A stretch of 33,433 bases of DNA, taken from contig DWXI01000107.1 in the NCBI GenBank assembly GCA_019119265.1, positions 1 to 33,433 of the forward strand, read 5' to 3'. A model generated the notes under the pieces. It did not search any database and was not told where the DNA came from. It worked only from the letters and a program-made list of their open reading frames with translations. This DNA is from Candidatus Mediterraneibacter intestinigallinarum (GTDB taxonomy: Bacteria; Bacillota; Clostridia; Lachnospirales; Lachnospiraceae). A program made the position numbers and the translations under genes. Positions 9,664-24,110 of the stretch are shown piece by piece (position 1 is the first letter of the stretch; every line of letters begins with the position of its first letter).

Positions 9664-9701
9664 AAATAATAATATGAGTTTGGAAAGAGGGGCGTAATGT
9701 G

Positions 9702-10715
9702 ATGCACGAAAGCGGTGAGAAGGGAAAAAAGATGACTATCAATGATGTTGCGGAACAGCTTGGCGTTTCAATAAGCACGGTATCCCGCGCAATATCGGGA
9801 AAAGGAAGGATTGGGAGCGCAACACGAAGGAAAGTGCTTGAGTTTATTGAAGAGCATGATTACCATCCGAACAGCAGCGCAAAAAGTCTTGCGCAGGCAA
9901 AGACAGAGAATATTGCTCTTCTTATACCGGAAGTAAAGACGCTGGTGGCTCAGCCTTTTTTCTATATGTGTATGTGCGGTGTGAATGAGGTGGCGCAGGC
10001 GCGGGGATATGATATGTTTGTAGTAACTACAAACGGACAGGATATAACAAGATTGAAACGCCTTCTGGATAACGAAAAAGTGGACGGCGTGATTCTTGGA
10101 AACACTCACAGAGATGATGCGTTTGCAAAATTTTTGAAATCCCGGGGATGTCCGTTCGTTGCAATCGGATCCATGGACGATAATTCTGTTATTCAGGTAA
10201 ATCATGACAACATGGGTGCCTGCCGGGATCTTACAGCAATCCTTCTGTCACGGAAGATGCGCAGGATAGCATATATGGGCACGTCTGGCAACCTGATAGT
10301 AAATGAAGAACGATACGGAGGATATCTGCAGGCTTACCGGGATATTGGGATGGATGTGGATATGAGCCTTGTGTATAGAGATAATATGACTGAAACAATC
10401 GTGCGCAAAAATACAGATGAGATTGTGCGTAAAAGAGCTGACTGCATTCTCTGCCAGGATGACGCCATATGTAATGCCGTCCTGCAGGAACTCTACACTC
10501 AGAAGGTGAGAATCCCTGAGGAAATGCGAGTGGCATCCTGCCATAACAGTAAAACTTTAGACAGTTATCCGGTTACGGTTACATCGTTAAAGTTTGATAA
10601 TACAGAGATTGGACGTGTCGCAAGCGATGTGCTGATCGACATGTTGAATGGAAAGGAAGTGCCGGGGAAAACATTACTGGATTATGAAGTTGTCTTGAAA
10701 GAATCTACAAAATAG
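9702..10715 (+). CDS. LacI family regulator of the galactan locus (GanR-like)
   Basis: A 337-residue LacI/GalR-type repressor. The N-terminal helix-turn-helix and hinge are clear: MTINDVAEQLGVSISTVSRA (11-30), then a YHPNSSAKSLA segment. A periplasmic-binding-protein-like effector domain follows (IALLIPEV..VDGVILGNTH..FVAIGSMDD..RRIAYMGTSG). I used the ATG at 9702, nine bases after GAGGGG; a GTG at 9699 and an ATG at 9732 are alternatives. Its position directly before the solute-binding gene, with shared palindromes in both promoter regions, points to control of the galactan transporter operon, as GanR does in Bacillus subtilis. The inducer is presumably a galacto-oligosaccharide, which is inference. 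Confidence 0.9.
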   Translation: MHESGEKGKKMTINDVAEQLGVSISTVSRAISGKGRIGSATRRKVLEFIEEHDYHPNSSAKSLAQAKTENIALLIPEVKTLVAQPFFYMCMCGVNEVAQARGYDMFVVTTNGQDITRLKRLLDNEKVDGVILGNTHRDDAFAKFLKSRGCPFVAIGSMDDNSVIQVNHDNMGACRDLTAILLSRKMRRIAYMGTSGNLIVNEERYGGYLQAYRDIGMDVDMSLVYRDNMTETIVRKNTDEIVRKRADCILCQDDAICNAVLQELYTQKVRIPEEMRVASCHNSKTLDSYPVTVTSLKFDNTEIGRVASDVLIDMLNGKEVPGKTLLDYEVVLKESTK

Positions 10716-10872: not shown

Positions 10873-10896
10873 TTGCGCAACAAAAGCGTTGTGCAA
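10873..10896 (+). promoter_or_regulatory. Operator-like inverted repeat downstream of the promoter
   Basis: TTGCGCAAC (10873-10881) and GTTGTGCAA (10888-10896) form an inverted repeat with one mismatch, separated by AAAAGC. It lies about 12-35 bases downstream of the predicted transcription start, a position that would let a LacI-type repressor block transcription. The half-site matches the palindrome in front of the LacI-type gene. Confidence 0.6.
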
Positions 10897-10945
10897 GACG
10901 CAAAAAAATAATTCCGACACAGAAATCGGAAAAGGAGGTTATTTT

Positions 10946-12244
10946 ATGAAGAAAAAGTTGGTAAGCGTATTGTTGTCAGCGGCTATGGTCGCAACACTGC
11001 TCGCAGGCTGCGGCGGCGGATCAGGTGAGTCATCGGACAGCACGGAGGGCGCTGCTTCAGGCGAGAAGCAGACTGTAGCCTTAAGAATGTGGGGCGCAGA
11101 GGAAGATCAGGAGTTTTTAAAAGGAATGGCAGAGTCTTTCGCTGAAGAATATGCTGACGCTGCCGATATTACGGTTGAAGTCGGTGTAGAAAGTGAGTCT
11201 ACGGCAAAAGATACTGTTCTTACAGATGTTGAGGCAGCTGCTGATGTTTTTTCATTTGCTTCCGATCAGCTTCCGGATCTGGTAAATGCAGGAGCACTGC
11301 AGTCCATTGATGAAATGGACGAAGCTCTTCAGGCATATGCCGGAAAAAGCGTAGCGGACGTGGAAGAGGCAAATACGCCGGATTCTGTAGAAGCGTGTAC
11401 ATTCAACGATACTCTGTATGCGTTCCCGAGAACAGCCGATAATGGCTACTTCCTGTTCTATGATTCATCTGTGCTTTCAGAGGATGACGTCGCTTCCTGG
11501 GATTCTCTTCTGGCTGCAGCGGACGCGGCAGGAAAGAAAGTTGGAATGACTCTGGCATCCGGATGGTATAATGCTTCCTTCTTCTACAGTGCAGGATTTA
11601 CAACCGGCCTGAATGATGATGGTTCCACATCCATGGATTGGAACGGGGAGGCTGATTACACAGGAGTAGAAGTGACACAGGCTATGCTGAACATCACAGG
11701 CAGCCCGGCATTTATGGCAGTAGCGGACGGAGATATTTCCAATCAGCTTGCGTCAGGTCAGCTCTGTGCAGCGGTATCGGGAACATGGGATGCGAGTGTG
11801 GCACAGGAAGTATTCGGCGACGGATATGCAGCTACAAAACTTCCTACATTTACAATTGCAGGAGATCAGGTACAGCAGGCTTCTGTATCCGGTTATAAGA
11901 TGGTTGGTGTAAATGCTCACTCTGAGAACGCAGGATGGGCGGCTCTTCTTGCAGACTGGATCACAAGTGAAGCTGCGCAGCAGACACAGTTTGACGAGCG
12001 CCAGATCGGACCGTCCAATAAAGTTATACTTGAGTCTGATGCAGTTCAGTCAAATGTAGCTCTTTCAGCTCTGGCAGCACAGAACGAGTTCGGTGTTGTG
12101 CAGTTTGCAGGACAGAACTATTGGGATCCGGCAGCTACGTTTGGCGAGATGATTGCAAAAGGTGAACTTGATGTAAATGATACGGAAGGAATTCAGGCGG
12201 CTCTCGATACGCTTGTAGAAGGGGCAACAGCTCCTATCAACTAA
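10946..12244 (+). CDS. Galacto-oligosaccharide-binding lipoprotein of an ABC importer (GanS-like)
   Basis: An extracellular solute-binding protein of the maltose-binding (family 1) type, 432 residues. The N-terminus is a lipoprotein signal peptide: MKKK, a hydrophobic stretch, and the lipobox LLAGC with Cys22 as the lipid attachment site, followed by a Gly/Ser/Glu-rich linker. I used the ATG at 10946 because AAAGGAGG lies just before it and it begins the signal peptide. The mature part starts with VALRMWGAEEDQEFLKGM, typical of sugar-binding proteins. The two permease genes and the GH53 galactanase downstream suggest galactan-derived oligosaccharides as ligand; this is inferred from context, not from binding residues. 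Confidence 0.92.
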   Translation: MKKKLVSVLLSAAMVATLLAGCGGGSGESSDSTEGAASGEKQTVALRMWGAEEDQEFLKGMAESFAEEYADAADITVEVGVESESTAKDTVLTDVEAAADVFSFASDQLPDLVNAGALQSIDEMDEALQAYAGKSVADVEEANTPDSVEACTFNDTLYAFPRTADNGYFLFYDSSVLSEDDVASWDSLLAAADAAGKKVGMTLASGWYNASFFYSAGFTTGLNDDGSTSMDWNGEADYTGVEVTQAMLNITGSPAFMAVADGDISNQLASGQLCAAVSGTWDASVAQEVFGDGYAATKLPTFTIAGDQVQQASVSGYKMVGVNAHSENAGWAALLADWITSEAAQQTQFDERQIGPSNKVILESDAVQSNVALSALAAQNEFGVVQFAGQNYWDPAATFGEMIAKGELDVNDTEGIQAALDTLVEGATAPIN

Positions 12245-12335: not shown

Positions 12336-13781
12336 ATGGAAAAATCGAAAGGGAAAGTCGCAGGATTTTTTGGCGGCATCGGAAGATTTTTTCGGGGCTT
12401 CGGAGAGGCGGTTGCGAAAGGCGACCTTTTTGTAAAGCTCTCCCTGATTTGGATGGGAGCAGGATATTTCCGTAGAAAACAGTATGTTAAATCCGTCCTG
12501 ATCACAATTTTTGAAGCACTGATTATCATATTCAGTGTAGTGTGTTCGGCACAGTATATACCGAAATTTGGAACTCTTGGAACGGTAAAAAGAGCATCGG
12601 AGTTTAACCCGGTGACCATGAAAAATGAGATCAACGATTATGACAATTCGTTTATGATCCTCTTGTTTTCAGTAGTAAGTATTGTTATCTGGATTGTTTT
12701 CCTGCTTGTCTGGATATCAAATGTCAGACGCGCATATGAGCTCCAGAAGATGGCGGAGAAAGGGGAACATATCAATACGTTCCTGGAAGACCTCAATACT
12801 TATCGAAATGAAAACTTTTATAAGACACTTCTTGCACTTCCGGTTGCAGGAGTAGTTGTTTTTACAGCAGTTCCGCTGCTTATTCTGATACTTGTTGCGT
12901 TTACAAACTATGATCAGCAGCACATGCCGCCGGCAGAACTTTTTACATGGGTTGGCCTTGATAATTTTATCAGCCTGTTTGGGGGCGGCGGATTGACGAT
13001 CACGTTCGGATACTCATTTGTGCGTGTATTGATATGGACGCTCGTGTGGGCCCTGTTCTCCACGTTTACAACCTATATCGGCGGTATCCTTTTGTCGCTG
13101 TTGATCAACCATAAACGGGTAAAATTGAAAAAACTGTGGCGTACAATGTTCATGGTGACAATCGCCGTGCCGCAGTTCGTATCCCTGCTGCTGGTGAGAA
13201 ACTTCTTTGCAGACGGAGGTATTGTCAATACGATCTGTGCAAATGTGGGACTGACAGACTTCCTGAGAGATGTCGGACTGATCAGCACCTCATATATTCC
13301 ATTCCTCACCTCGCCAGGGTGGGCGCATGTAATGATTATCCTGATTAATATCTGGGTAGGCGTGCCGTATCAGATGCTGATCGCAACCGGTGTACTTATG
13401 AACCTGCCCACAGATCAGGTTGAGAGCGCGCGCATCGACGGCGCGACTCCGGTACAGATATTCCGCCATATTACCATGCCGTACGTGCTCTTTATCACGG
13501 GGCCTGCGCTGGTTACGGACTTTGTAAAGAATATCAACAACTTTAACGTAATCTATCTGCTGACGCAGGATGTATACACAACGACGAACCAGGCGCTCGC
13601 CAATTCGCAGGCGAAAGAGGTCGACCTGCTGGTAACGTGGCTGTTCCGTCTGACGCAGGAGTATTACAACTATAAGATGGCTGCCGTTATCGGTATCGTA
13701 GTCTTTGTGCTCTGTGCGGCGTTTACATTGATCGCCTTCGGCCGTATGACCAGAGGAGACCGAGAGGAGGTATATCAATAA
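12336..13781 (+). CDS. ABC transporter permease, MalF/GanP type
   Basis: A 481-residue inner-membrane permease of the carbohydrate uptake (CUT1) class. About eight hydrophobic segments can be counted, with two extra N-terminal ones as in MalF (around residues 50-73 and 107-130). The EAA loop that contacts the ATPase is visible as DQVESARIDGATPVQIFRHI followed by TMPYV, near residues 360-385. It has a GGAAGGAG ribosome binding site and overlaps the next permease by one base at 13781. Together with the lipoprotein and the next permease it forms an importer like B. subtilis GanSPQ. No ATPase gene lies in the window, so a shared MsmX/MsmK-type ATPase is likely. Confidence 0.93.
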   Translation: MEKSKGKVAGFFGGIGRFFRGFGEAVAKGDLFVKLSLIWMGAGYFRRKQYVKSVLITIFEALIIIFSVVCSAQYIPKFGTLGTVKRASEFNPVTMKNEINDYDNSFMILLFSVVSIVIWIVFLLVWISNVRRAYELQKMAEKGEHINTFLEDLNTYRNENFYKTLLALPVAGVVVFTAVPLLILILVAFTNYDQQHMPPAELFTWVGLDNFISLFGGGGLTITFGYSFVRVLIWTLVWALFSTFTTYIGGILLSLLINHKRVKLKKLWRTMFMVTIAVPQFVSLLLVRNFFADGGIVNTICANVGLTDFLRDVGLISTSYIPFLTSPGWAHVMIILINIWVGVPYQMLIATGVLMNLPTDQVESARIDGATPVQIFRHITMPYVLFITGPALVTDFVKNINNFNVIYLLTQDVYTTTNQALANSQAKEVDLLVTWLFRLTQEYYNYKMAAVIGIVVFVLCAAFTLIAFGRMTRGDREEVYQ

Positions 13782-14623
13782 TGAAGATTAAAGTTTCAGA
13801 TATTGTAAGACATGTACTTCTGGCGTTCCTTGCGGTGGTCTGGCTGGTGCCGATCGTATGGCTGCTAGCTACATCATTCAGTAAATATACTGGTATGAAT
13901 TCCTCCACGTTTTTCCCGGAGGAATGGTCGATCGACAGTTACAGAAACCTGCTGTTCGGATCAGATACGGTAGCGCAGTTCCCGAACTGGTTCTGGAACA
14001 CATTTATTATCGCGGTATTTACATGTATTATTTCCACCGCTTTCGTGCTTATGGTGGCGTATGCGACATCCTGTATGAGGTTCCGTGGAAGAAAGACTTT
14101 GATGAACATTGCTGTTATCATTAATCTCTTTCCGGGTGTCCTGGCGATGATTGCTGTATATTTTATTTTGAAGAGCATCGGATTGACAAACAGTCATCTC
14201 GGACTGATTTTTGTATATTCCGCGTCTTCAGGACTCGGCTATCTGATCGCGAAAGGATTCCTGGATACGGTTCCGGTTTCTCTGCGTGAAGCTGCTTATC
14301 TTGATGGTGCGAGTGAGGCGAAGGTGTTCTGGAGAGTGGTTATGCCGATGAGTAAACCGATCATCGTGTATACGGTTATCAGTTCTTTCCTTGTACCGTG
14401 GATGGACTTCGTATATGCGAAGATGATGCTGAACTCCGGCGTGGCGTCGCAGTGGACGGTTGCGATCGGACTTTATAATATGCTTGAGAAGAGTCTGATC
14501 AATACGTATTTTACACAGTTCTGCGCAGGCGGCGTGATTGTCTCGATCCCTATATCGATTCTGTTCATCATTATGCAGAAGTTCTATGTAGAAGGCGTCA
14601 CAGGAGGAGCAGTCAAGGGTTAA
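13781..14623 (+). CDS. ABC transporter permease, MalG/GanQ type
   Basis: A 280-residue permease with about six membrane segments, the second half of the heterodimeric channel. The EAA loop reads SLREAAYLDGASEAKVFWRV and then VMPMSKP (around residues 166-190). The N-terminus LLAFLAVVWLVPIVWLLATSF is the first membrane helix. The ATG shares one base with the end of the preceding stop region, preceded by GAGGAGG, so translation is coupled. Its stop is followed by a strong hairpin with a U tail that separates transport genes from the hydrolase genes. Confidence 0.93.
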   Translation: MKIKVSDIVRHVLLAFLAVVWLVPIVWLLATSFSKYTGMNSSTFFPEEWSIDSYRNLLFGSDTVAQFPNWFWNTFIIAVFTCIISTAFVLMVAYATSCMRFRGRKTLMNIAVIINLFPGVLAMIAVYFILKSIGLTNSHLGLIFVYSASSGLGYLIAKGFLDTVPVSLREAAYLDGASEAKVFWRVVMPMSKPIIVYTVISSFLVPWMDFVYAKMMLNSGVASQWTVAIGLYNMLEKSLINTYFTQFCAGGVIVSIPISILFIIMQKFYVEGVTGGAVKG

Positions 14624-14687: not shown

Positions 14688-15800
14688 ATGGAATCGTTCA
14701 TAAAGGGCATGGATGTCTCCTCGCTGAAAGAACTGGAAGAGCTGGGAGCAAAGTACTACAAAGAAGGACAGGAGAAAGAGCTTCTGGAAATATTAAAAGA
14801 ATATGGTGTAAACTCGATTCGCCTGAGACTGTGGAATGATCCATACAGCGAGTCGGGAGTTCCGTACGGTGCGGGCACCAATGACCTTAAGACGACGACA
14901 GTGCTTGCAAAGAGAGTCCTTGCTAAGGGCATGGGATTTCTTCTGGATCTCCACTACAGTGATTTCTGGGCGGATCCGGGCAAGCAGCGCATCCCGAAAG
15001 CATGGCGTGGCATGGATGTGCCGCAGCTTGAGGAGGCGGTATATGATTATACCAGACAGGTACTTGTATCGCTTAAAGAACAGGATGCGTTTCCGACGAT
15101 GATACAGGTTGGAAACGAACTCTCAAACGGTTTGCTCTGGCCTTATGGAAAAATACCGCAGTATGACAATATTGCGCGATTTTTAAATGCGGGGATACGT
15201 GCGGTGAGAAGTGTAGATCCGGATCTTCCGGTGATGCTGCATCTGGATAACGGCGGCAATAACGCGCTCTATCGAGAGTGGTTTGATGAGTTTATGAAGC
15301 GGGGGGAGGAGTTCGAGGTAATCGGGCTGTCCTACTATCCGTTCTGGCACGGAACCCTGCAAGATCTTGAGGATAATATGCATGATATTTCCATGCGTTA
15401 TGGAAAAGAGCTGATCGTGGCAGAAGTGTCCATGGGATATACAATGGAGGACTATGCCTCTTACGAACAGCTCGGAGAGGGTGAACGCAAAGGAATGGCA
15501 ACAAAACCAGAGCTTGCAGCTAAGGTGGGGTATCCGATGACTCCACAGGGTCAGAGTGATTTTATGCAGGATTTCCTCACAAGGATTTCGAGGGTGAAAG
15601 GCGCCCGCGGATTCTATTACTGGGAGCCGGGATGGCTTCCGGTACCCGGCAGCGGCTGGGCCAACGATGAGGCGCTCGCCTATATTGAAGAACAGGGTCC
15701 GGGTGGAAACGAGTGGGCGAATCAGGCGCTTTTTAACTATAGAGGCAATGCGCTGAAGGCGCTTGATACGATCCGGGATTTTGCAGCAGTTCAGCCATAG
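14688..15800 (+). CDS. GH53 endo-beta-1,4-galactanase, probably cytoplasmic
   Basis: Arabinogalactan endo-beta-1,4-galactanase family (GH53), which cuts beta-1,4-galactan side chains of pectin. The 370 residues contain FIKGMDVSS at the N-terminus, SIRLRLWNDPYS (43-54), LDLHYSDFWADPGKQ (86-100), the acid/base Glu144 in IQVGNELSNGLLWP and the nucleophile Glu246 in LIVAEVSMGYT. The WEPGWLPVPGSGW stretch near the C-terminus is also typical. Unlike secreted GH53 enzymes it begins almost directly at the catalytic domain, with no signal peptide or lipobox. It should therefore act inside the cell on imported galacto-oligosaccharides. It follows the importer genes and is ten bases from the next gene. 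Confidence 0.94.
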   Translation: MESFIKGMDVSSLKELEELGAKYYKEGQEKELLEILKEYGVNSIRLRLWNDPYSESGVPYGAGTNDLKTTTVLAKRVLAKGMGFLLDLHYSDFWADPGKQRIPKAWRGMDVPQLEEAVYDYTRQVLVSLKEQDAFPTMIQVGNELSNGLLWPYGKIPQYDNIARFLNAGIRAVRSVDPDLPVMLHLDNGGNNALYREWFDEFMKRGEEFEVIGLSYYPFWHGTLQDLEDNMHDISMRYGKELIVAEVSMGYTMEDYASYEQLGEGERKGMATKPELAAKVGYPMTPQGQSDFMQDFLTRISRVKGARGFYYWEPGWLPVPGSGWANDEALAYIEEQGPGGNEWANQALFNYRGNALKALDTIRDFAAVQP

Positions 15801-15810
15801 AGGGTGCGGG

Positions 15811-17718
15811 ATGAACTGTCATGAGAGTTTTTTTACAGAAACAGAAAGGTTTGGTATAAATAACATGGATAAATTTGTTGTTAATATTATTCATCGTCCT
15901 GAGATGGTGCCGGAGTATGCCGAGAAGGTGACCGGACATGGAAAAGAAGAGGATATCGGAAGAAAGTCTCTTCTTACAGAGTCTCTCGATATTTTTAAAT
16001 TTCAGCAGGAGACTGCTCATAAGAACGGGCTTAAGACGACGATCCAGATGACGTATGCGTCTCTTTTCAATGAAGAGGCGATACAGATCGCAAAGGATCA
16101 TCATGAGAAATACGGCGACGAGATCGCCCTTTCCCTTTTGGGGCTGCCGTGTACAGAATTTCGTGAGAAATATAAAACAAAGGATTTCTGTATCTGGATG
16201 TTCTCTATGGAAGATAAGAAATCGATCGTGGACGATGTATTTGGAAAATTCTATGATACATTCGGTTTCTATCCGGAGTCAACCGGCTCCTACTATATGG
16301 ACGCAGAGCTGACAAACTATATCAAGGAAAAGTACCCGTCTGTAAAATGTGCCATAGCCACATGCTGGGAAGAGGGCCCCAAGGCATATCATACATGCAA
16401 TAATTCATGGTATACGCTGTTTGACGGCGGTCCGTGGAATCCGTGGATTCCTTCAAAGCAGAATACTCATGCGCCGGCGGCAAACGAGGCGGAGGACAGC
16501 GGAATTGTTGCAATCCCGCATCTTTCCCGCGACCTGCTTGCATGCTATGACGGGAACGGTTCGAATTTCGGCACACATCCGCAGAACGTTCTGCGCGGAA
16601 TGATCTATGATACAAAGACCTGGGAGTATCCGTATCTGTATAATCTTGTCGATCAATACCGCGCTCTTGAAAAATATAACAATGGTTATGCTTATAATAT
16701 GATGTTTGTAGGGCCGGGCTGGCTTAATAAAATGGGCCGATGGGAGGCTCCGTATGAGCTGCTTAAGAAATCCTATGAGGATGGTATGGCATACTATGGA
16801 CAGCTTAAAAAAGAAGGAAAACTTGACGACATGACAATGGCGGAGTTTGCTGATTATTACCGTCAGAAAAAGACTTATACAGAGCCGGAATGCGCACTGT
16901 GGAGAGATATCCTTTATGGCTCCGACAAGCAGATTTTCTGGTATTGCGATCCGTATATGAGAGCCTGTGTCAACATGGATCAGGGCGGTGCGATCGTGGA
17001 TCTGCGTCCGTATGCGGCAAAACTGAAATGGGAAGTAGGAATCGGAACAAAGCATGTACAGGATGCGTCCTATCCGTTCCTGATCCAGGAGAAATACAGA
17101 GCCGGATACTTTACGCATTATGCTGGAGAGGGAACAGTACGCAGCGCGAAACTCACTTATAAGGGAGAGGAAGTTGATCTGTGCCTGTGCCGGACAAAAG
17201 CGCATTTTTCTGAGGAAGAGATAGAAGGCGGAAAGAAAAAGAGAATTCTTACTCTTGATCCGGTGGATATTGAATTCCAGGATTTGACGGTGAAGCTGCA
17301 GACAAGAGTGATCTTTGCAGAGGGAGAGTCCGATATCCGGATTGAGAGAAGAATCCTGGAAATGAGCGATCCGTCTGCAAAAGTGGAGCTCAACGAATAC
17401 ATGGTGGCATGTTACGGTACGACCGAGTATCCGGAGGATATGACGGGAATCACTCTTGCATGTGTAAAAGAGGGAGAAGCGAAGTCCATCAGCTATGAAT
17501 ATAAATGCAGAGAAGAGGAAATGGATGGCGCGGACATTGTCAGCGCTGTGATCCCGGCGATCGAGACAAAAGTATCCATGAGTATGGACAAGAAAGAGTC
17601 AAAAGGCTATGTCCGTGAGGGATATGCATTCTCCCCGATGTTTACGCTGGGATATTCGACAGAAGTTTCTGATAAGGAGGTAGTGTCCACATGGCTCAAG
17701 CTGGAAAAGGCAGATTAA
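15811..17718 (+). CDS. Unrecognised 635-residue protein of the galactan locus, putative carbohydrate-active enzyme
   Basis: I do not recognise the family with confidence. The ATG at 15811 follows AGAGGG and lies ten bases after the GH53 stop; an ATG at 15865 is an alternative. No signal peptide is present, so it is cytoplasmic. Residues about 20-370 look like an alpha/beta barrel: KFVVNIIHRPEM (21-32), GLKTTIQMTYASLF (73-86), AKDHHEKYGDEIALSLLG (94-111), GFYPESTGSYYMDAELTNYI (152-171), CWEEGP (185-190), FDGGPWNPW (204-212), IPHLSRDLL (235-243). This pattern recalls the GH57/polysaccharide deacetylase-like superfamily, but that is only a guess. Residues about 380-635 are beta-rich and charged, like an accessory sandwich domain. 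Position between GH53 and the beta-galactosidases suggests action on galactan fragments. Confidence 0.8.
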   Translation: MNCHESFFTETERFGINNMDKFVVNIIHRPEMVPEYAEKVTGHGKEEDIGRKSLLTESLDIFKFQQETAHKNGLKTTIQMTYASLFNEEAIQIAKDHHEKYGDEIALSLLGLPCTEFREKYKTKDFCIWMFSMEDKKSIVDDVFGKFYDTFGFYPESTGSYYMDAELTNYIKEKYPSVKCAIATCWEEGPKAYHTCNNSWYTLFDGGPWNPWIPSKQNTHAPAANEAEDSGIVAIPHLSRDLLACYDGNGSNFGTHPQNVLRGMIYDTKTWEYPYLYNLVDQYRALEKYNNGYAYNMMFVGPGWLNKMGRWEAPYELLKKSYEDGMAYYGQLKKEGKLDDMTMAEFADYYRQKKTYTEPECALWRDILYGSDKQIFWYCDPYMRACVNMDQGGAIVDLRPYAAKLKWEVGIGTKHVQDASYPFLIQEKYRAGYFTHYAGEGTVRSAKLTYKGEEVDLCLCRTKAHFSEEEIEGGKKKRILTLDPVDIEFQDLTVKLQTRVIFAEGESDIRIERRILEMSDPSAKVELNEYMVACYGTTEYPEDMTGITLACVKEGEAKSISYEYKCREEEMDGADIVSAVIPAIETKVSMSMDKKESKGYVREGYAFSPMFTLGYSTEVSDKEVVSTWLKLEKAD

Positions 17719-17906
17719 ATTACCGCTGTCCGATGTGTTTTATGAGAGATCTTGACATTGATATGTTCTATGATAAGGACAAAGATGAATATTACTGCAT
17801 CCGCTGCCAGTATGTCGGCAATGAGGAGGATGTACTCAAAAGAAATGAAGTCGTGCGCATGAAATACGGTGCGATGATGAAGCGGTATAAGATGGAAGAT
17901 TTTTAA
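17691..17906 (+). CDS. Small zinc-ribbon protein
   Basis: A 71-residue protein with two CxxC pairs, YRCPMC (Cys13, Cys16) and YCIRC (Cys36, Cys39), spaced as in a one-zinc ribbon, followed by a basic/Met-rich tail (RMKYGAMMKRYKMEDF). I take it as real because a perfect AAGGAGG lies just before the ATG, inside the end of the previous gene. The start overlaps that gene by 28 bases in another frame, which implies translational coupling. The function is unknown; zinc ribbons of this size bind nucleic acid or proteins. A hairpin terminator follows. Confidence 0.8.
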   Translation: MAQAGKGRLNYRCPMCFMRDLDIDMFYDKDKDEYYCIRCQYVGNEEDVLKRNEVVRMKYGAMMKRYKMEDF

Positions 17907-17995: not shown

Positions 17996-18802
17996 TCAGT
18001 TCATCCGACGGAATTCCAGCGGTGTGGTTCCGACTGCTTTTTTGAATACGGCGATAAAATGACTGGAATCGGTAAAGCCTGTGCGGCGGGCGACGTCCTG
18101 TATTTCCAGATGCGGATTGATAATCAGGAGCTCTTTTGCCTTGCTTATGCGGTACGCAGTCAGATACTCGTAGACGGAGCAGTTTAGATAGCGATGGAAC
18201 AGGCGTGTCAGATACTGAGGCGTGATAAATACCTTTCTGCCCAGATCTGGCACAGTCAGCGGAAGAGAAAAGTTCCTTTCAATTTCTTTTATTACGGGAA
18301 GAACATAATTTTTATAAAGCGGTGCATCGGCACGGTTGGCCGTGTGGGTAGTGTCTGCAATATTTACCAGAACGGCATAACAGTTGACTGAGAGCCGTTT
18401 TCCGTCAACCGGGTGGGTGCTGTACATTGCGATGCTGTCATCAATCAGACGGGCTATCTGTACGCCCTGCACGGCGCCTACTGGAATAACCTGACGGTTC
18501 CTCATGATCTGCGGGATGCTTCGTTCGGCTGTTCCGGTAAAAGTGGCGAATTTTACAGACCAGATATTGTCGGACTTATTGTAAGAATGACGGATGAACG
18601 GTGCGATCAGCAGTCCTTCATCTTTGTGCAGTGTATATGTGCCGGAAGCTGTCTCTACTTTTCCGGCACCCTGCTCAGTCTGAAGGTAATGATAGAAAGG
18701 ATATCCGCCGAGACGTGTGACGGGATCCTGCTCCCAGTTCTTTCCGAGAGATTCAAATGTGAATGGTTCAGTTACGGGAACGCTGCGGAATACTACATTC
18801 AT
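17996..18802 (-). CDS. AraC family transcriptional regulator
   Basis: A 268-residue regulator with an N-terminal cupin-like sugar-sensing part (GKVETASGTYTLHKDEGLLI..IRHSY, about 50-90) and a C-terminal double helix-turn-helix: LTVPDLGRKVFITPQYLTRL and then IQDVARRTGFTDSSHFIAVF before the conserved GTTPLEFRR end. AGGAGG lies six bases before the ATG on the minus strand. It is divergent from the GH2 beta-galactosidase, and the two promoters share bases, so it most likely controls the GH2-GH42 pair. AraC proteins of this type usually activate in the presence of the sugar; the ligand is not readable. Confidence 0.93.
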   Translation of the reverse strand: MNVVFRSVPVTEPFTFESLGKNWEQDPVTRLGGYPFYHYLQTEQGAGKVETASGTYTLHKDEGLLIAPFIRHSYNKSDNIWSVKFATFTGTAERSIPQIMRNRQVIPVGAVQGVQIARLIDDSIAMYSTHPVDGKRLSVNCYAVLVNIADTTHTANRADAPLYKNYVLPVIKEIERNFSLPLTVPDLGRKVFITPQYLTRLFHRYLNCSVYEYLTAYRISKAKELLIINPHLEIQDVARRTGFTDSSHFIAVFKKAVGTTPLEFRRMN

Positions 18803-18904: not shown

Positions 18905-22021
<3,117 letters not shown>

Positions 22022-22058: not shown

Positions 22059-24110
22059 ATGTTAGGAGGACATTTACTCCACGGCGGAGATTATAATCCG
22101 GAACAGTGGCTGGACTGCCCGGAAGTTTTAGAAGAAGATATCAGACTTATGAAAGAGGCGGGCGTCAACTGTGTGACGCTGGGGGTATTCTCATGGGCAG
22201 TGCTTGAGCCGGAAGAAGGGATATATGATTTCGGCTGGCTGGAAGAAATCATCGATAATCTGGCTCGAGCGGATATTCAGGTAATTCTAGCGACACCGTC
22301 AGGAGCCATGCCCCACTGGCTGACGCAGAAATATCCTGAGGTAATGCAGGTGCGAGCCGACGGACAGAGAAACCTGCCGGGAAAACGGCATAATTTCTGT
22401 TATACTTCACCGGTGATGAGAGAGAAGATTACGGCGCTTGACGAAGCCCTTTCGGAAAGATTTGGCAGAAAGGATAATGTGATTTTATGGCATCTGTCCA
22501 ATGAACTGGCAGGAAATTTCAGTGATGGGGCATGCCACTGCGATTTATGTCAGAGAGCATTCAGAGAGTGGCTGAAAGAAAAATACGGCACGCTGGAGGA
22601 ATTGAACCATGCGTGGTGGGGCCGCTTCTGGAGCCATGTATATACAGACTGGGAGCAGATCCACAGCCCCGCGCCTCACGGAGAGACAACGGTGACCGGG
22701 CTGGAGCTTGACTGGCGCAGATTTGTTACGGATCAGATCAGTGACTTCTGCGGCATGGAGAGGCGCGCTGTGGCTAAATATTCAGAACTTCCCGTCACGA
22801 CAAATTTTATGGATACGTTCAAGAACATTGATTACAACAGGCTGCAGAAAGAGCTGGATATTATATCTTGGGATAACTATCCGTGCTGGCATAAGGAGAA
22901 AGACGAAGTTCCCGTGGCGGTTCGGGCGTCGTTTAGCCACAGTATGATGCGCACGATGAAGAAGAAGCCGTTCCTCCTTATGGAGAGTGCTCCGTCTGTT
23001 GTTAACTGGCGGAACAACAATCCGGTGAAACGTCCGGGGATGCATATGCTTTCTTCCATGCAGGCGGTTGCCCACGGTTCGGATTCCGTGCAGTACTTTC
23101 AGTGGAGAAAAGGCCGCGGCTCCTATGAAAAATTCCATGGAGCAGTACTGGATCATAAGAACGGAAGTGATACACGTACATTCCGCGAGGTATCCGAGGT
23201 AGGAAAACGCCTGCCGAGACTGGATCAGATGCTTGACAGAACAGTAAACTGTCCGAAGGCGGCTATACTTTTTGACTGGACAAACTGGTGGGCAGTTGAA
23301 GACATTACAGGGCCGAGGCTGGATCTGGATTATCCGGCATGTGTCCTTGCCCATTATCGTGTATTCTGGGAAAAAGGCATTGAGGCGGATATCGTAGATA
23401 TGGATGCGGATCTGAGCAGTTATCAGCTCGTGTCTGCTCCACTGAATTACATGTATAAAAAAGGATGGGATAAAAAAATAAGAAAATTCGTCGAGAGCGG
23501 GGGAGTATTTGTAACTACATATTTCAGTGGTATGGCAGATGAGACAGACCTGTGTTTTACGGGGCATCATCCGTTGGAGGAGGTTCTGGGGATCATCCAG
23601 GAGGAAATTGACGCTCCGTCCAAAGAGTTTGAGAATTTGTTCGTATATGCGGGAAAAGAGTATACGGCGCAACGGATGTGCGAGATCAATCGCGCAAAGG
23701 AAGGCACCGAGGTGCTCTCTGTTTACGAAAGAGATTTTTATGCGGGCTGTCCGGTTGTAACGCGCAATCAATTTGGAAAAGGCGAAGCGTATTATCTGGC
23801 AGCAGAGTCTGATCTTGCATTCCTGCGGGCATTTTACGGTGATGTGTTTGAGCGGACCGGACTGAAAAATGCGCTTGACACAGAGCTGCCCTATGGCGTG
23901 ACAGTAACGGAGCGGACCTGCGCTGATCAGGCTCCGGCAGATGGGGATGCGGAGACGAAAAAACACAAGGGTGTTGTGTTCGTGATGAATTTTAAGAATG
24001 ATCCGGTCTGCGTGGAATGTGCCGGAGAGTGGACGGACGCTGAGACCGGTGAGGTATGCCGGGATAGAATAGAAATGAAAGCGTTCGGCAGCAGAGTGTT
24101 TGTAAGCTGA
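22059..24110 (+). CDS. GH42 beta-galactosidase (GanA type)
   Basis: A 683-residue GH42 enzyme; GanA of B. subtilis, in the gan operon, releases galactose from galacto-oligosaccharides. The N-terminus GGDYNPEQWLDC and VTLGVFSWAVLEPEEG are family hallmarks. The acid/base is Glu149 in LWHLSNELAGN, the nucleophile Glu309 in LLMESAPSVVNW. Cys114, Cys159, Cys161 and Cys164 (CHCDLC) match the zinc-binding cluster of GH42 trimers. A trimerisation-type domain follows (about 390-600, FDWTNWWAVE) and then a short beta domain. The ribosome binding site is AAAAGGAG. No signal peptide, so the enzyme is cytoplasmic. Having both GH2 and GH42 suggests different linkages or chain lengths are handled. Confidence 0.96.
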   Translation: MLGGHLLHGGDYNPEQWLDCPEVLEEDIRLMKEAGVNCVTLGVFSWAVLEPEEGIYDFGWLEEIIDNLARADIQVILATPSGAMPHWLTQKYPEVMQVRADGQRNLPGKRHNFCYTSPVMREKITALDEALSERFGRKDNVILWHLSNELAGNFSDGACHCDLCQRAFREWLKEKYGTLEELNHAWWGRFWSHVYTDWEQIHSPAPHGETTVTGLELDWRRFVTDQISDFCGMERRAVAKYSELPVTTNFMDTFKNIDYNRLQKELDIISWDNYPCWHKEKDEVPVAVRASFSHSMMRTMKKKPFLLMESAPSVVNWRNNNPVKRPGMHMLSSMQAVAHGSDSVQYFQWRKGRGSYEKFHGAVLDHKNGSDTRTFREVSEVGKRLPRLDQMLDRTVNCPKAAILFDWTNWWAVEDITGPRLDLDYPACVLAHYRVFWEKGIEADIVDMDADLSSYQLVSAPLNYMYKKGWDKKIRKFVESGGVFVTTYFSGMADETDLCFTGHHPLEEVLGIIQEEIDAPSKEFENLFVYAGKEYTAQRMCEINRAKEGTEVLSVYERDFYAGCPVVTRNQFGKGEAYYLAAESDLAFLRAFYGDVFERTGLKNALDTELPYGVTVTERTCADQAPADGDAETKKHKGVVFVMNFKNDPVCVECAGEWTDAETGEVCRDRIEMKAFGSRVFVS

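Follow-up and report, generated by a model that had tools for sequence, protein, structure and literature searches.

The main finding of this analysis is, as we consider it, a small gene that lies across the 3′ end of an unnamed gene in a galactan utilization operon, and that was absent from an earlier sequence-only reading of the same DNA. The window, which is the whole stretch of 33,433 nucleotides that was analysed (contig DWXI01000107.1 of Candidatus Mediterraneibacter intestinigallinarum), carries in this order genes for a LacI-type regulator, a sugar ABC importer, a GH53 galactanase and the larger protein, here termed X, followed by an AraC-type regulator gene on the opposite strand and then by GH2 and GH42 beta-galactosidase genes (Table 1). 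The product of the smaller gene, Y, has a sequence (MAQAGKGRLNYRCPMC...CIRC...) that follows a Cys4 zinc-ribbon pattern. Dietary fibre commonly includes galactan derived from pectin, and if X and Y were needed for the use of this galactan, the pair would represent an overlooked step in Lachnospiraceae, which are common gut bacteria. It would have been overlooked because X has no family name while Y is shorter than ordinary size limits for open reading frames, for instance 100 residues, the minimum of the listing used here, below which the 71 residues of Y fall. The pair also shows cleanly how overlapping genes can be conserved, the final codons of one protein being dictated by the signals that initiate the other.

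Table 1. Features of the window discussed in the text, with positions counted from its first letter.
Feature	Position	Strand	Description and basis
LacI-type regulator	9699..10715	+	Pfam
Sugar-binding lipoprotein of ABC importer	10889..12244	+	Pfam SBP_bac_8
ABC permease	12336..13781	+	Label by sequence reading; conserved neighbour cluster
ABC permease	13781..14623	+	Label by sequence reading; conserved neighbour cluster
GH53 endo-beta-1,4-galactanase	14688..15800	+	Pfam E 1.3e-115; no evident signal peptide (sequence reading)
X	15865..17718	+	Cytoplasmic protein, probably 617 aa; predicted GH57/NodB-like barrel and galactose-mutarotase-like C-terminal domain; reading frame open from ATG 15811 too
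Y Shine-Dalgarno AAGGAGG	17674..17680	+	Within X codons D-K-E-V; GGAGG in 76/79 loci; codons frozen
Y	17691..17906	+	71-aa zinc-ribbon protein (RCPxC ... CxxC); -1 frame relative to X; overlaps the final 28 nt of X (counting its stop codon)
AraC-type regulator	17996..18802	-	Pfam
GH2 beta-galactosidase	18920..22021	+	Pfam
GH42 beta-galactosidase	22059..24110	+	Pfam

The sequence-only reading had described an open reading frame of 635 residues (15811–17718, forward strand), with its ATG ten bases past the GH53 stop at 15800, no signal peptide and no recognizable family, and this description is accurate. The motifs DHH (96–98), CWEEGP (185–190) and FDGGPWNPW (204–212) are where it had placed them, the GH53, GH2 and GH42 labels of the neighbours were each verified by Pfam, and the N-terminus does not read as a signal peptide. 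X had no family match in Pfam or NCBIfam at E up to 10 and no sequence match in the PDB, where profile searches with the A2 profile and the clade C profile were likewise negative. The protein is probably shorter than the open frame, with 617 residues and a start 64 bases past GH53, since homologues align from M19 and a start codon at M19 (15865), or at most one codon away, is present in all 80 kept loci; as far as can be read, both candidate starts in the window have a weak Shine-Dalgarno sequence. Residue numbers in what follows (D146, E169, D223 etc.) are counted from M19, unlike the motif positions just given. Conservation is strong for CWEEGP and the DGGPW / PSK stretch and only partial for DHH.

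A search with the single sequence of X in 398 genomes from across the phylum matched only the window itself, and relatives were therefore sought with profiles. A separate scan found relatives in at least 444 stretches, well beyond what chance would give, from which 80 loci of 81–96% identity were kept, the nearest matches, among those listed, being MAGs of Candidatus Mediterraneibacter; a scan of viral contigs gave no relative. The gene occurs in 23 of 146 near-relative genomes (counting the window's own genome and one weak match), in 54 of 397 genomes drawn from the family (profile search, two weak clade C matches, G060 and G559, being dropped, and some of the 54, such as G850 and G868, having fragments only) and in 24 of 391 genomes drawn from the class (weak matches and two family members counted). 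Three clades were distinguished. Clade A, to which the window belongs, has ~60–96% identity to X and consists mostly of Lachnospiraceae, plus seven other members of the class; clade B has 33–39% identity; clade C, with ~20–25% identity over an alignment covering mainly the barrel, is joined to A and B by hhalign (probability 99.7, E 2.2e-26, 338 columns). X evolves slowly, with a mean column identity of 85% in 43 kept sequences and of 91% for the barrel part in 52 sequences; in L171, for example, identity to the reference neighbours is at best 89% for X, 64% for GH53 and 50% for LacI. The clade C barrel proteins (e.g. L034:9568-11982) make up another unnamed family, which lacks the zinc-ribbon partner; some have chitobiase-like or F5/8 C-terminal domains, and phmmer searches with two of them gave as sole match the chitobiase-like tail of one.

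Y is present in all 79 kept loci that have DNA beyond X, where its ATG always precedes the end of the X stop codon by exactly 27 bases, and in 190 of the 190 fetched stretches that cover the 3′ end of X and beyond (124 distinct Y sequences), across which its residues M, R, C, P, C, D, C and C are invariant. Three of 193 stretches had been set aside from this count, one that ends at the X stop (L065) and two without the X 3′ end (L025, L041); some of the 190 come from the same genomes, and neither the overlap counts nor the linkage counts are corrected for common descent. As start, the scan accepted the first ATG encountered from −60 onwards, which puts two cases, as scored, at −51. The pairing extends to relatives of 33–39% identity in loci that are not devoted to galactan, and in the clade B genes inspected Y is present and overlaps X in the same frame, while the 400 bases downstream of nine clade C genes contain no Y-like motif. 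When a Y profile was used to search 185 genomes, all 25 strong matches (E 1e-27 or better) overlapped X on the same contig, and one weak partial match (G075, E 1.5e-4) did not; in G678, Y contains an internal TGA. The pairing of the two genes, seen in every clade A and clade B case open to checking, is strongly supported. Three Y proteins compared with Pfam and NCBIfam gave matches that were all below cutoff, among them YheV/DUF2387, TFIIB and DnaG ribbons, and Y was assigned to no known zinc-ribbon family. Small zinc ribbons often bind nucleic acid, and these weak matches would suit a Y that acts as a regulator, for example as an RNA- or DNA-binding protein reporting the synthesis of X, the X enzyme working alone. 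We regard this as quite unlikely, as a one-to-one pairing with X across unrelated loci better suits a subunit.

Selection acts on both reading frames. Over the last 14 codons of X, synonymous-codon identity is 2.43 times the expectation; none of 161 other 14-codon windows within the final 200 codons exceeds 1.42. Outside the overlap, Y has a median dN/dS of ~0.09 in the 218 of 3081 pairs that fell within the range of synonymous distance used. The GGAGG upstream of the Y ATG takes the form TAAGGAGGTA in 58 of the 76 loci that have it, and the ATG falls on an X residue that is W (TGG) in 77 of 79 loci and C (TGT) in the two others, W or C being found in clade B too. It might be argued that programmed −1 frameshifting makes Y a C-terminal extension of X and not a separate protein, Y being in the −1 frame at the end of X with a Shine-Dalgarno site upstream, as is known for some frameshift sites, e.g. 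that of dnaX. This is improbable in view of several features of the overlap: in the 13 overlaps inspected, the ATG closely trails a Shine-Dalgarno-like stretch but lies at different distances from the X stop (−18, −27, −30, −33), and clade B keeps the ATG as this distance shifts (−18, −30, −33); W and C are residues with TGN codons; and, by reading, no slippery heptamer was seen. The conservation of the Shine-Dalgarno sequence and of the ATG, the frozen X codons, the shifting distance from ATG to stop and the dN/dS of Y favour a separate initiation of Y, probably by translational coupling. Because the signals that would start Y, Shine-Dalgarno sequence and start codon alike, lie within the last X codons, ribosomes ending X could start Y on the spot, and both proteins would be made together.

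The barrel-like N-terminal half and beta-rich C-terminal half attributed to X on first reading were seen again in structure prediction and fold matches, in models of low confidence (mean pLDDT 64 for the first and 54 for the barrel alone, most of residues 165–295 being poorly modelled). GH57 and NodB-type enzymes are the top fold matches of the barrel, and the barrel-only model, despite its lower pLDDT, gave the same top match; the Foldseek superposition of X on 1k1x is poor overall (TM 0.29), and the C-terminal domain matches unrelated proteins, such as the periplasmic domain of YidC, as well as mutarotases. With moderate confidence, X may be understood as having two parts, first a (beta/alpha) barrel that belongs to the GH57/GH38/NodB superfamily and then a beta-sandwich of the galactose-mutarotase-like kind. 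An alignment of 22 relatives (six of clade A, seven of clade B, nine of clade C) shows N7, C167 and D223 to be invariant, with E or D at positions 169 and 327 in 22/22 each, and D146 and E86 in 21/22 each; E170, W182, H219, R222, H238, W286 and R381 separate the Y-bearing clades A and B from clade C, W286 also being present in the Parabacteroides distasonis X-like and DUF3863 sequences considered below. The catalytic acids would be, as candidates drawn from this alignment, D223 with E169 or D146. D146 belongs to a stretch, G-S-Y/W-x-x-D, whose likeness to the GH38 nucleophile motif is visible by eye but was not confirmed by profile comparison. One clade B member had a sub-cutoff match to PRiA4_ORF3 (E 0.0007), which was taken as chance.

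X is a glycan gene, for which beta-galactan is the main setting in clade A, though others exist. Among the 79 kept loci with X called (a count that omits L113, where the caller of open reading frames lost X though tblastn finds both X and Y), GH53 is in the same stretch in 71, and in 60 it is directly next to X on the same strand; of the eight without GH53, four end within 2.6 kb downstream of X. The caller can also lose GH53 to longer frames on the opposite strand, as it did in L185, where GH53 is placed as in L172. A GH53 gene lies within 1.5 kb of X in 23 of the 30 best-scoring loci of the family, in 6/7 clade A loci outside the family and in 0/6 clade B loci. The link to galactan loci therefore stands for the close clade and fails for clade B, and homologues situated mostly outside such loci, which had been named beforehand as speaking against the link, are what is found in clade B and not in the close clade. 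Among the 397 family genomes, 45 have X and GH53, nine X only, 41 GH53 only and 302 neither (odds ratio 36.8, Fisher p 1.9e-26, shared ancestry being ignored), and nearly half of the GH53 genomes are therefore without X; 93 GH53 genomes had been reported, of which 89 were above the Pfam cutoff and 86 were kept, seven with E from 1.2e-4 to 7.7e-4 being dropped.

In four of the nine genomes with X only, X is beside a second ABC importer and a GH2 gene, in three it is at most two genes from a divergent GH36-like gene, in one (G850) it is truncated, and one, of clade B, has it beside a fucosidase-like gene; clade B neighbours also include GH36-like, GH31, rhamnosidase and GH42 genes. The substrate of X need not be galactan, because X is also present at GH2/GH36-like loci and because clade B is found in loci for other sugars. 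Where GH53 was not found, X repeatedly has in its vicinity, in clade A as in clade B, a divergent GH36-like gene with Melibiase or Raffinose_syn matches (L032:17796-19601, L158:11143-12900, L162:17776-19605, L192:3423-5174, L193:10865-12853). Near a clade B X-Y pair, L193:12853-18598 contains two gene pairs that read as resembling a glycyl-radical enzyme and its activase. A secreted GH13-like lipoprotein, again labelled by reading, is encoded in 11 of 79 X loci, e.g. L102, and is unexpected for a galactan locus. At L161:9616-11249, in G850, X and LacI are both truncated and a Y-coding match remains, possibly in a decaying copy of the locus.

We can picture X and Y as together forming a single cytoplasmic carbohydrate enzyme, with X as the catalytic and Y as the zinc-ribbon subunit. 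This enzyme would be a glycosidase or transglycosidase, and would act on imported beta-1,4-galacto-oligosaccharides or on their side groups, once the ABC importer has brought them in, and would work together with GH53 and the GH2/GH42 beta-galactosidases. To a two-subunit glycosidase or transglycosidase of imported galactosides we give an even chance, where we infer the binding of Y to X, the zinc in Y, the activity, the substrate and the catalytic residues. The sequence-only reading had guessed at a new enzyme for galactan fragments, which has partial support here, and X may well be the hydrolase that it named first. Against a galactan glycosidase it counts that beta-galactosidases are already encoded at the locus; furthermore, GH57 and GH38 enzymes act on alpha bonds, which makes an awkward fit with beta-galactan. 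The presence of beta-galactosidases beside X might mean that another step is wanted, and GalT-like and GalK-like genes are near X in 16/79 and 14/79 loci, respectively, so that a two-subunit isomerase, epimerase, lyase or phosphorylase of galactose or galactobiose has also to be considered. It is unlikely when set against the GH57/NodB-type top fold matches of the barrel, though fold is not proof of function. A glycosidase or transglycosidase has also to be weighed against a de-acetylase, which had been among the first guesses and would, as a NodB/CE4-like enzyme, remove acetyl groups from imported galactan fragments. The metal site of CE4 enzymes is made of an Asp at the end of strand 1 and a His-x3-4-His pair. 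X shares their barrel fold and differs both in its mutarotase-like C-terminal domain and in this site: inspection of the alignment shows that the end of strand 1 reads N-x-x-H-R, with no Asp, that an invariant His-x3-4-His pair is absent, and that the invariant or near-invariant histidines 10, 52, 219 and 238 lack the proper spacing. Deacetylation of the CE4 type is disfavoured because this site is missing, and we think it very unlikely, though X might have a metal site of another kind. An hhalign comparison of X with CE4 gave no significant match, with a CE4 set that was faulty, at least one of its three loci having as longest open frame something other than a deacetylase.

Open-access literature on overlapping genes, zinc ribbons, glycoside hydrolases, galactan and GH53 yielded no description of the X-Y pair, which, as judged from these searches, is undescribed. 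Predicted GH53 loci have been reported in Roseburia hominis A2-183 and Roseburia faecis M72/1, with hypothetical genes drawn white (PMC5320581), and no X is named in the parts consulted of that article and of PMC6344614. One near parallel is the DUF3863/DUF3864 protein BDI_3119 (PDB 3lm3), with the same barrel fold as X; no open-access paper was found on the function of DUF3863, DUF3864, BDI_3119 or 3LM3. The profile of DUF3863, PF12979, gave no match to X, was not listed for 13 members of clades A and B at E up to 5, and reached two of nine clade C members below cutoff (E 0.022 and 0.039). The DUF3863 sequence keeps E86, D223, E327 and D379 and differs from X in having S at positions D146 and E169. 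In Parabacteroides distasonis (NZ_OY725801.1, L246:7587-10710), a SusC/SusD locus that also has GH2 encodes, directly next to DUF3863, a protein distantly similar to X that is annotated as hypothetical and begins like a lipoprotein, and both families may cooperate; the three forward frames over 300 nt at the end of this X-like gene have no zinc-ribbon motif.

As for better known systems, GH38 alpha-mannosidases gave full-length Foldseek matches to X (7ufs, 7uft) with poor superposition, and their W-L-P-D stretch, which contains the nucleophile, looks by eye like G-S-Y-Y-M-D in X and G-S-W-L-L-D in its relatives; hhalign found no significant profile-profile match between X and GH38. The gan operon of Bacillus subtilis has GH53, GH42, an ABC importer and a regulator, as does the X locus, and to our knowledge it has neither X nor Y. 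The GH57 4-alpha-glucanotransferase 1k1x has the layout predicted for X, a barrel and then a mutarotase-like beta-sandwich. X differs from GH57 enzymes (this one and the amylopullulanases) in having no PF03065 match, one clade B member showing a weak local match (E 0.083, 33 residues); for their Glu nucleophile and Asp acid-base, X offers D146, E169 and D223 as candidates, and we know of no Y-like partner of a GH57 enzyme. The fold superfamily is known, and X and Y are outside all named families in the libraries searched. It is conceivable, at somewhat less than an even chance, that the pair represents a new two-subunit type of carbohydrate-active enzyme and a new CAZy family, in which a GH57/NodB-type barrel would need a zinc-ribbon microprotein, tied to galactan in Lachnospiraceae and to other glycans elsewhere in Clostridia.
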